Translations under genes and position numbers: made by a program
The notes under the pieces: model-generated
Told to the model about the DNA's origin: nothing
The model's database searches: none
Seen by the model: the letters and a program-made list of their open reading frames with translations, nothing else
Assembly (NCBI GenBank): GCA_030650395.1
Contig: JAUSDY010000021.1
Span: 1-64,000 of the forward strand
Reading direction: 5' to 3'
Origin: Acidobacteriota bacterium
GTDB lineage: Bacteria > Acidobacteriota > Vicinamibacteria > Vicinamibacterales > UBA2999
Length of the DNA: 64,000 bases
Part shown: positions 23,955 through 30,676 of the stretch, piece by piece
Numbering within the stretch: the stretch's first letter is position 1
Layout: every line of letters starts with the position of its first letter

Positions 23955-24449
23955 CTACGGCTCGATTCCAGCGATTCGCAAGGCGCGCGCGATGACCGCA
24001 TCTGACAGCCACATGCCCGCAGATCGGAGCTCCAGCAGGACGGCTCGCGGATCCGTGAGTGCTCCTCGGCGGTGAGCGGCGACGATCACGCCGAGCGTCC
24101 CGATGACTCCGATGCCGAGAGCCAGGCCGCATTTCCTGCCGCTCAGATCGTCGATGACCGCGTATGCGCCTGGTAGCTGAAGCGCCATGGCGATGACCGA
24201 CGATTCTCCCGCTCCCAAGTCCCACGCGATGACGGACGCCGGAACCTCTGACGTACGCCCCTTTTCCAGCCAGGCGGCTTCGGAGATCGCCTTGGCCGCC
24301 GCATCTGCGTGTCCGCCAGAGGTCACCTCGTCGAAGACGGGCTCGGGCACGATGATCCGGCCAGCTCCCGTTGCGCGCAGCAGATCGATTCGACCTGCGT
24401 TCGCGAGGAAGATCAGCGGCGACGCGTTGACGACCAGGACGTCAGGCAT
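23955..24449 (-). CDS. DUF3368 PIN-like putative toxin
   Basis: 164 residues. The pattern VVNASPLIFLANAG at the start, IIVPEPVFDEVTSGG, WDLGAGESSVIAMAL, AVIDDLSGRKCGLALGIGV and IGTLGVIVAAHRRG matches DUF3368 proteins, which share the acidic residues of PIN-domain ribonucleases (D/N near the start, E in GAGE, DD). Usually encoded directly after a UPF0175 protein, as here (8-base overlap). Inferred to be the RNase-type partner of a type II toxin-antitoxin pair. Confidence 0.85.
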   Translation of the reverse strand: MPDVLVVNASPLIFLANAGRIDLLRATGAGRIIVPEPVFDEVTSGGHADAAAKAISEAAWLEKGRTSEVPASVIAWDLGAGESSVIAMALQLPGAYAVIDDLSGRKCGLALGIGVIGTLGVIVAAHRRGALTDPRAVLLELRSAGMWLSDAVIARALRIAGIEP

Positions 24450-24714
24450 CCCTCAACTCGCGGGCGAGGTCCTGCTCGTCGACGACGAACACGTCGACGC
24501 GGCGGCGCGCCAGTTCCGCGAGGAACTCCGCCCGGCTCATGCCTGCCGTCTCAGCGGCGCGTGCCATCGAGATCGCACTCTGCTGATACCAGTGAATCGC
24601 CGCCGCGAGGCGCATCTCGTCGGCTACCTCGTGCGGTGCCTTGCGAAGGGCAGCGAGCAAGCTCTCGGGAACGGTCACGTCTACGTGGGTCATCACCGGC
24701 TCCTGATTCGGCAT
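24442..24714 (-). CDS. UPF0175 family putative antitoxin
   Basis: 90 residues, or 83 from the internal ATG giving MTHVDVTVPESLLAALRKAP. The family pattern of a short beta strand followed by helices is visible: DEMRLAAAIHWYQQSAISMA, RAAETAGMSRAEFLAELARR, RVDVFVVDEQDLARELR. UPF0175 proteins have a helix-turn-helix-like segment and pair with DUF3368 genes. It overlaps the downstream DUF3368 start by 8 bases. Confidence 0.85.
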   Translation of the reverse strand: MPNQEPVMTHVDVTVPESLLAALRKAPHEVADEMRLAAAIHWYQQSAISMARAAETAGMSRAEFLAELARRRVDVFVVDEQDLARELRDA

Positions 24715-26660: not shown

Positions 26661-27251
26661 TTATTTGCGGCGTCGCGGTACGCCGAGCTCGGCCAGCTTG
26701 GCCGCGACGGCCTGGCCATGAGTTGCGGGGCTGACATGCTTGTCGATGTACAGGATCTTCCCGTCGGGCCCGATGTAGAACGTCCAGCGAGAAGCGAACG
26801 GCTGATCGACATCAACCACGCCGTAGGCCTTGGCCACCTCTTTCGAGGGATCGCTCAGGAGCGGATAGTCGACGCCGAGCGATTGCGCGAAAGATTTGTT
26901 CGTCTCCGGGGTATCGACACTAACGGAAAAGTAAGCCACGTCGAACGGTCGGATTTCATCGCCACTCTCACGGAGTGACTGGCATTCGGCCGTTCAAGGA
27001 CCGGTGAAGGCCTTGGCGAACCAGGCCAGCACCACCGCCTGGCGTCCCTTGAAATCCGCGAGGCGGTAGGTCTTGCCATCCGTACCCGGGAGCGAAAAAT
27101 CGGGAGCGACATCGCCGACTTTCAACTCGTGCACACCCGGAATCGCGGCGTCCCTGGCATCGGCCGCGGAGGAGGGCGCGGACTGGCCCTGACACGACGA
27201 GACCAGGACGGTGATGACAATAAACGCGCCAACCGGATGACGGCTTCGCAT
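26661..27251 (-). CDS. Peroxiredoxin-like lipoprotein, probable selenoprotein (UGA = Sec86)
   Basis: One continuous frame of 197 codons interrupted only by TGA at codon 86 (26994-26996). Signal and lipobox (VITVLVSSC), then the redoxin fold: [38 protein letters not shown], then [57 protein letters not shown]. In homologues the residue at the UGA is the peroxidatic cysteine (FTGGCTAEC type), so UGA replaces exactly the catalytic residue and reads as selenocysteine. A hairpin meeting the bacterial SECIS rules starts ten bases after the UGA. Reading it as a nonsense mutation would need coincidence. Expected role: peroxide reduction at the envelope. Confidence 0.85.
26961..26983 (-). promoter_or_regulatory. 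Bacterial SECIS-like hairpin in the peroxiredoxin gene
   Basis: Minus-strand sequence ten bases after the UGA: GCCA, four-base bulge GTCA, CTC, apical loop CGTGA, GAG, TGGC. Seven base pairs, a three-pair upper stem, a G in the first two loop positions and 21 bases from UGA to loop, all inside the ranges I recall for bacterial SECIS elements. Confidence 0.75.
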
Positions 27252-27330: not shown

Positions 27331-29979
27331 GTGCGCCTGACTAACGGTGCGAAACTCGGCTGGTACGAAATCATCGAGCCGCTCGGCGAAGGCGGGATGG
27401 GCGAAGTGTATCGCGCGCGAGATGGCCGCCTCCAGCGCGACGTCGCCCTGAAGATCATCCATCCCGATCTGACCGGAAGCGATCCCCTGGTACGGTTTCG
27501 CCGGGAAGCGCGCGTGCTGGCGTCGCTGTGCCATCCCAACGTCGCGAACGTCTACGAGTTCGACGAGCTGGCCGAAACCGCATTCATCGTGATGGAGCTC
27601 GTGCCAGGTCAGACCCTGGCGAGCCGGCTCGCGCGCGGGCCGATGCCGATCGCCGAGGCATTACGAGTGGCCGGGCAGGTCGCCTCCGCGCTCCAGGCCG
27701 TCCACGACAAAGGCATCATTCATCGCGATCTCAAGCCCGCCAACATCAAGATCACCAGTGATGGTCTCGTCAAGGTCCTGGATTTTGGACTGGCGAAGCA
27801 CACCGAAGAGTCGCCGACGCCCGCCGATCATCCAACGATGACGGCCGACAACACCCGTGCCGGTGTCGTTCTTGGCACTGCGGCCTACATGAGTCCCGAA
27901 CAGGCGCGCGGCTGGGAGGTCGATCGCCGGACCGACGTGTGGTCGTTCGGCTGCGTACTGTTCGAGATGCTGACCGGAGGGCGCGCGTTCGCGGCGACCA
28001 CGCAGGCCGACACGATCGCTGCGGTACTCGAGCGCGAGGTGGACTGGAGCGCGCTGCCCCAGTCGACGCCGCCCAGCATCGCGCGGCTCCTCCGCCGATG
28101 CCTGACGCGCGATCCCAAGCGCCGGTTACGCGACATTGGCGATGTGCAGCTCGAGTTGGAAGACGCGCTCACGGAATCTCCATCCGATCGCGCGAACCCT
28201 GCCGCCGATCCGCGTTCGACCTCACGCCGCGGCGTGATGGCTGGGACCGTCTTCGCGACCGGACTGCTGATCGGCGGCGCGGCGATATGGCTCGGCCGAC
28301 CGCAACCGCAGACGCCGGGTACCGCCGTGCATTTCGTGGTGCCGCTGCCTTCGACAGCGCAACTCGCCGGACTCGATTTTCCAGGCCTGGCAATTTCTCC
28401 AGATGGCGCGACGCTGGCGTATGTGGCCAGCCGTGACAATCAGACGCAGTTATTTGTCCGTCCGATGAACGCCCTCGAGTCGAAACCCCTGCCGGGTACG
28501 ACCAATGCGGTAGCCCCGTTCTTCTCCCCTGACGGCCGCTGGATCGCATTCTTCGCCGGCGGCGAGCTCAAGAAGGTCGCGCTGTCGGGCGGTACGCCCG
28601 TCACGTTGTGCGAAGCGCCGGTCGGTCTCGGCGGCAGCTGGAATCAGGACGACGTGATTGTCTTTGCGGCTACGACCGGGTCCGGCATCTCGCAAGTCTC
28701 GGCGTTCGGCGGCCGTCCGCAGCGCATCTCGAGTCTCGACGACGCCAAGGGCGAGTTCAGCCATCGTTGGCCAGAGTGGTTGCCTGCCGCCAAAGCGATT
28801 CTGTACACCGTCGGCACCGTCGGCAGTTGGAACGACGCACAGATCGTGGCACAGTCGCTCGCGACCGGCGAACGAACTGTCGTGGTCCAGGGCGGCAGCA
28901 ATCCTCGCTATCTCGCCAGCGGCCACCTGCTCTATGTGCGTAATGGCACCATCATGAGCGTGCCGTTCGATGCCGACGGCCTGACCGTCACCGGCACCGC
29001 CGTTGCTGTCCTGGAGGGCGTGATGCAGTCGTCGGATGGCGCCGCGCAGTTCAGCATTTCGCCAAACGGTCACGCGGCGTATGTGGAAGGTGGATTGGGA
29101 TCGGAGGGACGCCGCCTCGTGATGGTCGGCCGCGACGGGGGGGTCACGCCGCTGTCCGCGCCGCCGCAGGCATATCGATGGCCGCGCGTGTCGCCCGACG
29201 GCCAGAAGGTTCTGGTGACGGTCGAAGGACCGCCGCCTGATCTATGGCTCTACGATCTGCGGTCGGGTGCGGCGACGCAGCTGACATTTGACGCCGGTGC
29301 GACCTTCGCCGCCTGGACCCGGGACGGGCAACGCGTCATCTACACCTCGTCCAGGAATGGGCCGCCGAATCTCTTCGTCACCCCGATCACACAACCGGCA
29401 TCGGCCGAAAGGGTCGTCTCGGGCGATCACATGCAGATCGCGGGGTCGTGGTCTGCTGACGGTGACACACTGGCGTTTGTCGAGCGTCGCCCAGACACCG
29501 GACGCGACATCCTGCTGATTTCGCCACGCGCACGCCGGCCAGCGCAGCCGTGGCTCGCATCGCCATCCGACGAAAGTACTCCGCGCATTTCACCCGACGG
29601 CCGGTGGCTCGCGTATGTCTCGAACCAATCGGGTCAAGACGAGGTCTACGTCAAATCCGTCGCGGACGCCGAACGTGTGCATCCGATCTCAACCGGTGGA
29701 GGCGCTGAACCGGTGTGGGGCACAGACCCGAAGGAGCTGTTCTATCGCAATCCAGACGGGATGATGCTGGCCATCTTCGAAGGCACAACGGCCCGCGAGT
29801 CTCGGGCGCAACTGCTCTTCAAGGGTGAGTTCGCGGGAGGCACCATCGACTCGCCCAACTACGACGTGATGCCCGATGGCCAGCGGTTCATCATGATTCA
29901 GCGTCAGTCGGCCGCCCCCACGACGCTGCATGTGCTGATGAATTGGTTCGACCGTTCACGCCTCGCATCATCGCCCTGA
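27331..29979 (+). CDS. Ser/Thr protein kinase with C-terminal WD40-like propeller
   Basis: 882 residues. The kinase domain (~10-275) has the glycine loop GEGGMGEVYRARD, VALKIIHPD, catalytic HRDLKPANIKI, DFG in VLDFGLAKH, and the activation region MSPEQARGWEVDRRTDVWSF. A single transmembrane helix (GTVFATGLLIGGAAIWLG, ~305-325) leads to an extracytoplasmic beta-propeller of PD40/TolB-like blades (FSPDGRWIAFF, VSPDGQKVLVTVEG, ISPDGRWLAYVSNQSGQDEV). This kinase-propeller architecture is a hallmark of Acidobacteriota. The propeller is presumed to sense a ligand. It converges on, and overlaps by 12 bases, the HMA lipoprotein gene. Confidence 0.93.
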   Translation: MRLTNGAKLGWYEIIEPLGEGGMGEVYRARDGRLQRDVALKIIHPDLTGSDPLVRFRREARVLASLCHPNVANVYEFDELAETAFIVMELVPGQTLASRLARGPMPIAEALRVAGQVASALQAVHDKGIIHRDLKPANIKITSDGLVKVLDFGLAKHTEESPTPADHPTMTADNTRAGVVLGTAAYMSPEQARGWEVDRRTDVWSFGCVLFEMLTGGRAFAATTQADTIAAVLEREVDWSALPQSTPPSIARLLRRCLTRDPKRRLRDIGDVQLELEDALTESPSDRANPAADPRSTSRRGVMAGTVFATGLLIGGAAIWLGRPQPQTPGTAVHFVVPLPSTAQLAGLDFPGLAISPDGATLAYVASRDNQTQLFVRPMNALESKPLPGTTNAVAPFFSPDGRWIAFFAGGELKKVALSGGTPVTLCEAPVGLGGSWNQDDVIVFAATTGSGISQVSAFGGRPQRISSLDDAKGEFSHRWPEWLPAAKAILYTVGTVGSWNDAQIVAQSLATGERTVVVQGGSNPRYLASGHLLYVRNGTIMSVPFDADGLTVTGTAVAVLEGVMQSSDGAAQFSISPNGHAAYVEGGLGSEGRRLVMVGRDGGVTPLSAPPQAYRWPRVSPDGQKVLVTVEGPPPDLWLYDLRSGAATQLTFDAGATFAAWTRDGQRVIYTSSRNGPPNLFVTPITQPASAERVVSGDHMQIAGSWSADGDTLAFVERRPDTGRDILLISPRARRPAQPWLASPSDESTPRISPDGRWLAYVSNQSGQDEVYVKSVADAERVHPISTGGGAEPVWGTDPKELFYRNPDGMMLAIFEGTTARESRAQLLFKGEFAGGTIDSPNYDVMPDGQRFIMIQRQSAAPTTLHVLMNWFDRSRLASSP

Positions 29980-30318
29980 GCCGCCAGGCTGCGGCGCAAC
30001 TTTGACGGTAGCCTTGTACGGAAGCGGGCCCACGGGTGCGGCGGCGGCGACGGCGCTAATCATGGCTTGAGTCGTGGCCGGCGGATCGTAGGTCACGATG
30101 GCCTCACTGGTCTCGAGCGAGACCTGAACTCGCGTCACGCCTTTGACCTCGAGCAGTGCAGACCGCACTGCCGAAATGCAGCCTTCTCAGGTCATGCCTT
30201 CGATGGCGAGTGTGACCGTTCCCGGCTTGGGTGGCTGGTCAGGCTCGCGCGCGCCGCTACAGGACGCCACCAGCGTCGCGCCGATCATCACTAACCAGGC
30301 TCGTCTTGCGATCTGCAT
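29968..30318 (-). CDS. Heavy-metal-associated domain lipoprotein, probable selenoprotein (UGA = Sec44)
   Basis: A 117-codon frame interrupted only by TGA at codon 44 (30187-30189). Lipoprotein signal (WLVMIGATLVASC), then an HMA fold: GTVTLAIEGMT, UGA, EGC, ISAVRSALLEVKGVTRVQVS, LETSEAIVTYDPPATTQAM. In HMA/MerP/Atx1 proteins the loop is GMTCxxC, so UGA stands exactly at the first metal-binding cysteine, giving a UxxC site. A perfect 7-bp hairpin with loop GGTCT follows 15 bases later. UxxC MerP-like selenoproteins are, to my recollection, on record from environmental surveys. Expected function: periplasmic binding or shuttling of Cu, Hg or another soft metal. Confidence 0.87.
30153..30171 (-). 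promoter_or_regulatory. Bacterial SECIS element in the HMA gene
   Basis: GCAGTGC-GGTCT-GCACTGC on the minus strand: seven perfect base pairs and a five-base loop beginning GG, with 22 bases between UGA and loop. The GGUCU loop closed by G-C pairs resembles the E. coli fdhF SECIS apex as I remember it (AGGUCU). Confidence 0.85.
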
Positions 30319-30540
30319 CGTCCGCACAGTTTACGCTGGTTGAGCGTCGGGCGACGGCTAGAGGTCAGCGTCGCCGGGGCCAGCTCATCAGTTACAAGTG
30401 AGCACCACCTTTGCCGAGACCGCGCTCGCACACGCGAGGCTCGCGGGCGTGCCCCGAGAGCGCGTGATCAATTGCTGGCCGCTGGCGCGATTACGTGACT
30501 GGGCAGGCCGCCGCACTCGCGCGGCAGCCTAGAGTCTAGA
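30319..30540. other. Intergenic region with a possible gene relic
   Basis: A plus-strand frame at 30398-30532 (GTG start, 44 codons) reads TTFAETALAHARLAGVPRER and VINCWPLARLRDWAGR. Its composition looks coding, but no family is recognised and it ends at a repeat array. It may be a fragment of a lost gene. Nothing else stands out before the array. Confidence 0.3.
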
Positions 30541-30676
30541 GTTGAAAGTTGAAAGTTGAAGGTTGAAAGTTTTAGTTTCGAGTTCAGTTCTAAGTTTCAA
30601 GTTTTGAGTTGTAGAACTATGAACTAGAAACTGAAACTTCCAACTTTCAACTTTCAACTTTCAACTTACAACTTAC
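30541..30676. repeat. Long inverted 7-bp array (GTTGAAA unit)
   Basis: About nine left-hand units (GTTGAAA, GTTGAAG, GTTTTAG, GTTCAG and variants) followed by about nine complementary units (ACTAGAA, ACTGAAA, ACTTTCA, ACTTACA). The halves can form a hairpin of roughly 60 bp. Its end overlaps the stop codon of the reductase gene at 30673. Low GC compared with its surroundings. Confidence 0.88.

Follow-up and report, generated by a model that had tools for sequence, protein, structure and literature searches.

A predicted single-domain HMA selenoprotein with a Sec-x-x-Cys metal site in a Vicinamibacterales genome

Background

Can a stop codon inside a metal-binding motif stand for selenocysteine (Sec), and what would selenium do at such a site? 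The question is raised by a small gene on a 64,000-nucleotide stretch of DNA (hereafter the window), positions 1 to 64,000 of the forward strand of contig JAUSDY010000021.1 (assembly GCA_030650395.1), from an Acidobacteriota bacterium of the order Vicinamibacterales (UBA2999). The gene encodes a heavy-metal-associated (HMA) domain protein, and an in-frame TGA takes the place of the first Cys of its CxxC site. We consider the gene very likely a genuine selenoprotein gene, whose UGA at codon 44 would be read by SelB and tRNA-Sec with the aid of a downstream hairpin. The best overall explanation, to which we give a probability of about 0.65, is a single-domain HMA selenoprotein that would bind soft metals through a Sec-Cys pair.

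Results

The gene and its in-frame UGA

The frame at 30318-29968 on the minus strand comprises 117 codons counting the stop, and its sole internal stop is the TGA at codon 44, within the motif GMT-U44-E-G-C47. A preliminary description of the stretch had reported this frame with its lone internal TGA; its coordinates and facts proved right, with the strand left unnamed. The product of 116 residues consists of a short lipobox N-terminus, a linker, the HMA domain and a short tail. The features of the locus are:

29971..30318, minus strand: predicted HMA-domain selenoprotein gene (Sec-HMA gene), 116 codons, from the Pfam HMA match and orthologues
29968-29970, minus strand: terminating TGA of the Sec-HMA gene
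30187..30189, minus strand: in-frame UGA, codon 44, first ligand position of CxxC; the same codon is TGA in relatives
30178..30180, minus strand: codon of Cys47, the second ligand position in U-E-G-C, invariant in a 15-member alignment
30153..30171, minus strand: SECIS-like hairpin GCAGTGC-GGTCT-GCACTGC, with 22 nt between the UGA and the loop
30040..30219, minus strand: HMA domain (MerP/CopZ-like), residues 34-93, from sequence and model matches
30259..30318, minus strand: putative lipoprotein signal peptide, lipobox VASC, Cys20 lipidated, read by eye

Beyond the UGA the frame is conserved at 54-56% identity over nearly its full length in three other genomes, and the UGA recurs at the same codon, which argues that the gene is more than a chance open frame.

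Recurrence of the UGA among relatives

We screened 162 genomes of the order and 396 genomes of the phylum (overlapping sets) and fetched the loci with a TGA within the match. UGA at the metal site was found in at least 25 genes of at least 22 genomes, always at the first Cys of CxxC, within the motifs UGGC (13), UEGC (4), UTGC (3), UAGC (2), UGAC (1), UDSC (1) and USGC (1); these numbers are a lower bound, one further TGA row (G116:C81:69583) being listed and left uncounted. CxxU and UxxU were allowed by the survey pattern, and none was seen among the genes counted. Loci L053, L060, L062, L080, L095, L101-L104, L106, L107 and L111 have a normal CxxC, their TGA lying at some other point of the frame, and were not counted. 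In a full-length alignment of 15 members, G41, M42, residue 44 (written as C), G46 and C47 are invariant.

A tree of 64 HMA domains (25 Sec, 39 Cys) was constructed with the trait column masked, from loci L021-L117, leaving out frames longer than 230 residues (26 of 87) except for three Sec rows that were restored. Sec appears in five places among Cys relatives, corresponding to five Sec/Cys changes compared with a mean of 20.2 after shuffling (0 of 500 shuffles as low), and the well-supported branches force at least two changes, in a tree that has few columns, an unsettled bootstrap and long branches (the Sec row of G367 among them) and that cannot tell gain of Sec from loss. The clade of the window gene (the window genome G000 with G013, G027, G082 and G250) and the UGGC/UGAC clade are each supported at 100/98, the UAGC/UTGC group of four at 100/93, and the Sec row of G359 groups with a Cys row (100/91). 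The alternation of Cys and UGA that the preliminary description had proposed to look for among homologues is therefore present, and an in-frame UGA aligned with the Cys of homologues is the pattern that points to a bacterial selenoprotein.

Selenium machinery of the genome

The window genome (5.4 Mb, 180 contigs, 98.4% complete) contains selB (324.5 bits), selA (539.6 bits) and a tRNA-Sec with the anticodon UCA (65.9 bits), all above cut-off, as a bacterial selenoprotein would require. The absence of selB and tRNA-Sec, named at the outset as evidence against Sec, is thus not what we found, selA being present as well. Among the 22 Sec-HMA genomes, a selA match was obtained in 20, of which 19 lie above cut-off; G236 has a weak fragment, and G101 and G367 have none. 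As selA is widespread in the order (123 of 162 genomes at 1e-60), its correlation with Sec-HMA is uninformative.

The hairpin downstream of the UGA

Re-examination bore out the hairpin at 30171-30153 as originally drawn, with a perfect 7-bp stem that starts 15 nt past the UGA and a GGTCT loop at 22 nt. A hairpin soon after the UGA with a G opening its small loop has the form of a bacterial Sec insertion sequence (SECIS), and we regard it as a candidate element. Like the SECIS of Escherichia coli fdhF, it is an in-gene hairpin just past the UGA, and the two have the string GGTCTGCAC in common; in fdhF the GGTCT starts 18 nt after the UGA compared with 22 in the window gene, and the predicted fdhF stem is interrupted whereas that of the window gene is perfect over 7 bp.

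At the same place, all five members of the window clade have a 6-bp stem CAGTGC..GCACTG (CGGTGC in G250) with the loop [GA]GTC[TCG]; five of the six pairs are invariant, hence no covariation is shown. GCA, a codon used for about 7% of Ala residues across eight genes of the window genome, occurs in the 3' arm in all five genes. The window hairpin is credible because it is kept in five of five clade members and this rare codon is used in each. In the UGGC/UGAC clade, a 6-bp stem with its loop 17 nt after the UGA is paired in 84 of 84 cells across 14 of 14 genes, a level reached in 8 of 500 shuffles, and one pair (C-G to G-C and G-U) differs in both arms, as a result of linked amino-acid changes. 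An Rfam search of the window returned SRP RNA and tRNA only, with no SECIS family. The SECIS assignment rests on position, conservation and likeness to fdhF, and not on energy.

Domain, fold and export

The protein matches Pfam HMA (PF00403) at 1.2e-14 with 54.8 bits against a gathering threshold of 24.8, which places it in the family, and the MerP structures 1afi and 1osd are matched by sequence at 8e-11. The AlphaFold2 model has a mean predicted local distance difference test score of 77, with values above 90 in all but one of the six ten-residue blocks spanning residues 31-90, and follows the order strand-helix-strand-strand-helix-strand (strands 33-40, 61-67 and 72-77, helices 45-56 and 84-93). 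Its top two matches in the PDB are oxidised and reduced MerP, and metal binding is the common trait of the HMA domains listed as matches by structure or sequence, MerP, CopZ and ATP7B among them. The metal binder first proposed is consistent with this homology and predicted fold, MerP being the best structural match.

The product is probably exported and lipid-anchored. Of this earlier proposal, the lipobox VASC with Cys20 can be seen by eye, and a simple lipobox pattern fits 12 of the 17 Sec proteins examined; the anchor is best called putative.

Neighbouring genes

The comparison of neighbourhoods took in 21 of the 25 Sec genes (all except those of G146, G118, G098 and G367). The nearest features in the window are:

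27331..29979, plus strand: convergently oriented gene for a Ser/Thr kinase that has PD40 propeller repeats
26664..27251, minus strand: peroxiredoxin-like (Prx-like, AhpC/TSA) protein, lipobox-like start, FTGPU-TAE-C; Pfam AhpC-TSA 6.7e-34
26996-26994, minus strand: UGA codon 86 of the Prx-like gene
26961..26979, minus strand: SECIS-like hairpin of the Prx-like gene, GTCACTC-CGTGA-GAGTGGC

The location beside a kinase-propeller gene noted in the preliminary description is true, and it left unmentioned the adjoining second predicted selenoprotein. Both the kinase-propeller gene and the Sec-type Prx-like gene are neighbours in four of the five clade members (G000, G082, G013 and G027); in G027 the Prx-like gene lies immediately upstream, on the opposite side, in G013 it is cut by the contig end, and in the stretch of G250 neither gene was seen. 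The hairpin of the Prx-like gene has a 7-bp stem and the loop CGTGA, with an A-U to G-C change in the stem of relatives. The Prx-like protein was matched in 155 of the 162 genomes of the order at 1e-12, paralogues counted; most of the rows listed contain a TGA, which was placed at the FTGPU residue in the loci examined individually. The Prx-like neighbour suggests a shared extracytoplasmic function against metal or oxidant stress.

Elsewhere in the window, an AT-rich intergenic inverted repeat with GTTGAAA-like heptamers lies at 30533-30676 (best arms 47 nt, 91% complementary), and at 23955-24714 on the minus strand a UPF0175 protein overlaps a DUF3368 protein, which we take to resemble a toxin-antitoxin-type pair.

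Mer-type loci in sister clades

Just downstream of the Sec gene in the UGGC/UGAC clade lies a gene for a small MerT-like membrane protein, in 10 of the 12 loci examined (14 known); of the remaining two, G140 reaches its contig end there and G101 has MerR-like genes. MerR regulators above gathering were found in four loci scanned (L123, L134, L135 and L136), that of L136 (G250) being 1.6 kb away, and zf_CopZ proteins above gathering in L123 and L125. In G359 the Sec-HMA gene is the third of six in a row: preceded by genes for a CsoR-type repressor and then MerT (92.3 bits), it is followed in turn by the CopZ-like, MerC and pyridine-nucleotide oxidoreductase genes.

The window genome itself has a second Sec-HMA gene (L051/L135, contig C120, about 21.5 kb) with the motif GMTUAGC, apparently without the signal peptide found in its relatives. 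It overlaps a fragment of a pyridine-nucleotide oxidoreductase (MerA-like) and adjoins a MerR gene, standing between the latter and efflux genes of the CusB/OEP type; this locus is possibly a rearranged mer locus. Furthermore, downstream of both Sec-HMA genes of G080 are short lipoprotein-like proteins with the motif LVFLTR(E/Q)GCVNT (L133:7126-7464 and L134:744-1073), which resemble a protein near the C120 paralogue and gave no Pfam match.

Discussion

Proposed function

The evidence assembled here is consistent with a sequence of steps in which SelB and tRNA-Sec would decode the UGA of codon 44 with the downstream hairpin, giving Sec44; the product would be exported, probably lipid-anchored, and would fold as a single MerP/CopZ-like HMA domain. 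Sec44-x-x-Cys47 would replace Cys-x-x-Cys, and its two ligands may coordinate a soft metal between them. Selenolate is a tighter ligand of Hg(II) than thiolate. The likely task of the protein would be extracytoplasmic capture of a soft metal ion, which a selenolate-thiolate pair would hold tighter than two thiols. For the window protein, we infer that Sec is incorporated, that the product is exported, and that metal binding occurs and is of benefit. Among the metals, Hg(II) is placed before Cu(I), at somewhat less than even odds, because the sister clades have a mer-type context.

Several results weigh against this picture. We saw no mer gene next to the window gene, the neighbours scanned being RibD_C, the kinase, the Prx-like gene and DUF2268; as the window copy is without mer context, it may instead bind Cu(I) or act in redox chemistry together with the adjoining Prx-like protein. 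Three of ten MerT-like proteins of the UGGC/UGAC clade have Pfam E-values of 8e-7 to 7e-6, below gathering, and a fourth scanned gave none. The hairpin of the window gene was matched by 3% of 200 synonymous recodings (0.03), a modest figure, and over the 25 Sec genes just 4 of 25 fall at or below 0.05 (median z -0.92). A pair changed on both sides, as in the UGGC/UGAC clade, was reached in 133 of 500 shuffles. Under the unbroken-stem rule, the UAGC/UTGC genes (G000, two of G080, G098) and that of G359 do no better than recodings; for the former four, one can draw, post hoc, a one-bulge stem whose loop lies 17 nt past the UGA, and in L110 of this group it is not the minimum-energy fold. Taken alone, the hairpin is modestly unusual and weak evidence.

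The selenium machinery also leaves a gap, as selD, the one member of the set selA, selB, selC and selD not found in the assembly, gave three matches in the window genome and none above cut-off; two of these (L018 and L019) we read as ThiL-like and PurM-like. All eight other genomes of the genus that were searched have selD above cut-off, with one TGA within each match. In G082 it sits between what we take to be parA-parB and atp genes; in the window genome, the atpA orthologue (94% identity to G082) is on contig C85, its first base 1.1 kb from that contig's start, and the G082 parB finds its best counterpart, at just 43% identity, on a different contig. Because the syntenic atpA stands near a contig end and the genus-mates all have selD, that of the window genome probably falls in an assembly gap. 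In G101, which is 93% complete, a Sec-type UGGC gene (L027, L068, L121) occurs with no selA match and no selD above cut-off; an assembly gap, a contaminant contig or lost machinery may account for this.

Alternative explanations

The alternative that survives best, unlikely in our judgement, is that the HMA fold serves as a thiol/selenol redox protein, for instance as partner or reductant of the Prx-like FTGPU selenoprotein, and not as a metal carrier. The adjoining Sec-type Prx-like gene in four of five clade members and the lipobox-like starts of both proteins, seen by eye, fit it, as does UxxC, noted as a redox-related selenoprotein motif in a 2026 review (PMC13188914). The structure and sequence matches listed are metal-binding HMA domains, however, the sister clades stand in mer-type loci, and Prx matches in 155 of 162 genomes of the order contrast with a UEGC HMA gene in at least four of the same 162. 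Slightly less probable still is that the two genes make up a unit of two extracytoplasmic selenoproteins conserved in Vicinamibacterales. There the HMA Sec-x-x-Cys would assist a Sec peroxidase, either as its selenol redox partner or by delivering metal to it, and an HMA domain would have become an oxidoreductase.

It is very improbable that the UGA is read as another amino acid, or ends a short peptide, without selenium; the missing selD would agree with this, yet the tRNA-Sec has a UCA anticodon, the genus-mates searched have selD, and the codon-44 position alternates with Cys on the tree. TGA terminates both the Sec-HMA gene and the kinase gene, so UGA is still a stop, and code reassignment was rejected. 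A sequencing error or nonsense mutation at the Cys codon of an ordinary CxxC HMA gene, conceivable as one base separates TGA from TGC or TGT and the window comes from a 180-contig assembly, has next to no chance and was rejected, together with a pseudogene, because independent genomes carry the same UGA, the frame after it is conserved and the Sec machinery is present.

Relation to known selenoproteins

With the alternatives so weighed, the soft-metal-binding Sec-Cys HMA protein can be compared with known systems. Its best NCBIfam match is NF041115, the 'UxxU metal-binding (seleno)protein', with which it shares an HMA-type domain and which all 15 Sec-HMA members scanned match; the window protein scores 61.8 bits against a cut-off of 95 and has one Sec, in U-E-G-C, compared with two in UxxU as published (PMC13188914). 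MerP (TIGR02052; PDB 1afi, 1osd) shares fold and motif, the window protein having Sec for the first Cys and scoring 51.4 bits against a cut-off of 92.55; MerP is a mer-operon gene, whereas the window copy lies outside a mer operon and its sister clades adjoin MerT/MerR-type genes. The MerT/CopZ fusion-like heavy metal transport selenoprotein NF045683 matches the window protein in its C-terminal part (42.9 bits, below the cut-off of 375), and is a fusion, whereas the window protein comes from a separate gene. The cation-transporting ATPase E1-E2 selenoprotein carries its Sec in an HMA domain. This membrane ATPase, in contrast to the free-standing single domain of the window protein, is also listed with UxxC in PMC13188914 and PMC2398784.

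The 2026 review gives 119 selenoprotein families, including the UxxU family NF041115, the UxxC ATPase and a MerT-type family, and its Table 1 has no row named as a single-domain HMA protein with UxxC. A table of GOS selenoproteins has a row 'Mercuric transport protein MerP' with two Sec sequences and, in the part available, no motif (PMC2398784). In the PMC literature, most subscription papers being outside its scope, we found no description of the single-domain UxGC HMA form, and none that joined selenoprotein and Vicinamibacter. The opening claim that such a protein was not described was therefore overstated, as HMA-type selenoproteins stand in NCBIfam (NF041115, NF045683) and in published lists; any novelty would lie in the single-domain UxGC form.

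Significance

A redox function is assumed for most selenoproteins, known or predicted. With Sec in place of one particular ligand of the pair at five points on the tree of Cys relatives, one can ask directly whether selenium serves metal affinity (Hg-Se) and not redox speed. Its small size and clear-cut Cys counterparts would allow the Sec and Cys forms of the domain to be compared in vitro. Moreover, gene callers that stop at UGA would miss the Sec-HMA gene, and Sec use may be common in the order, given selA in 123 of its 162 genomes.

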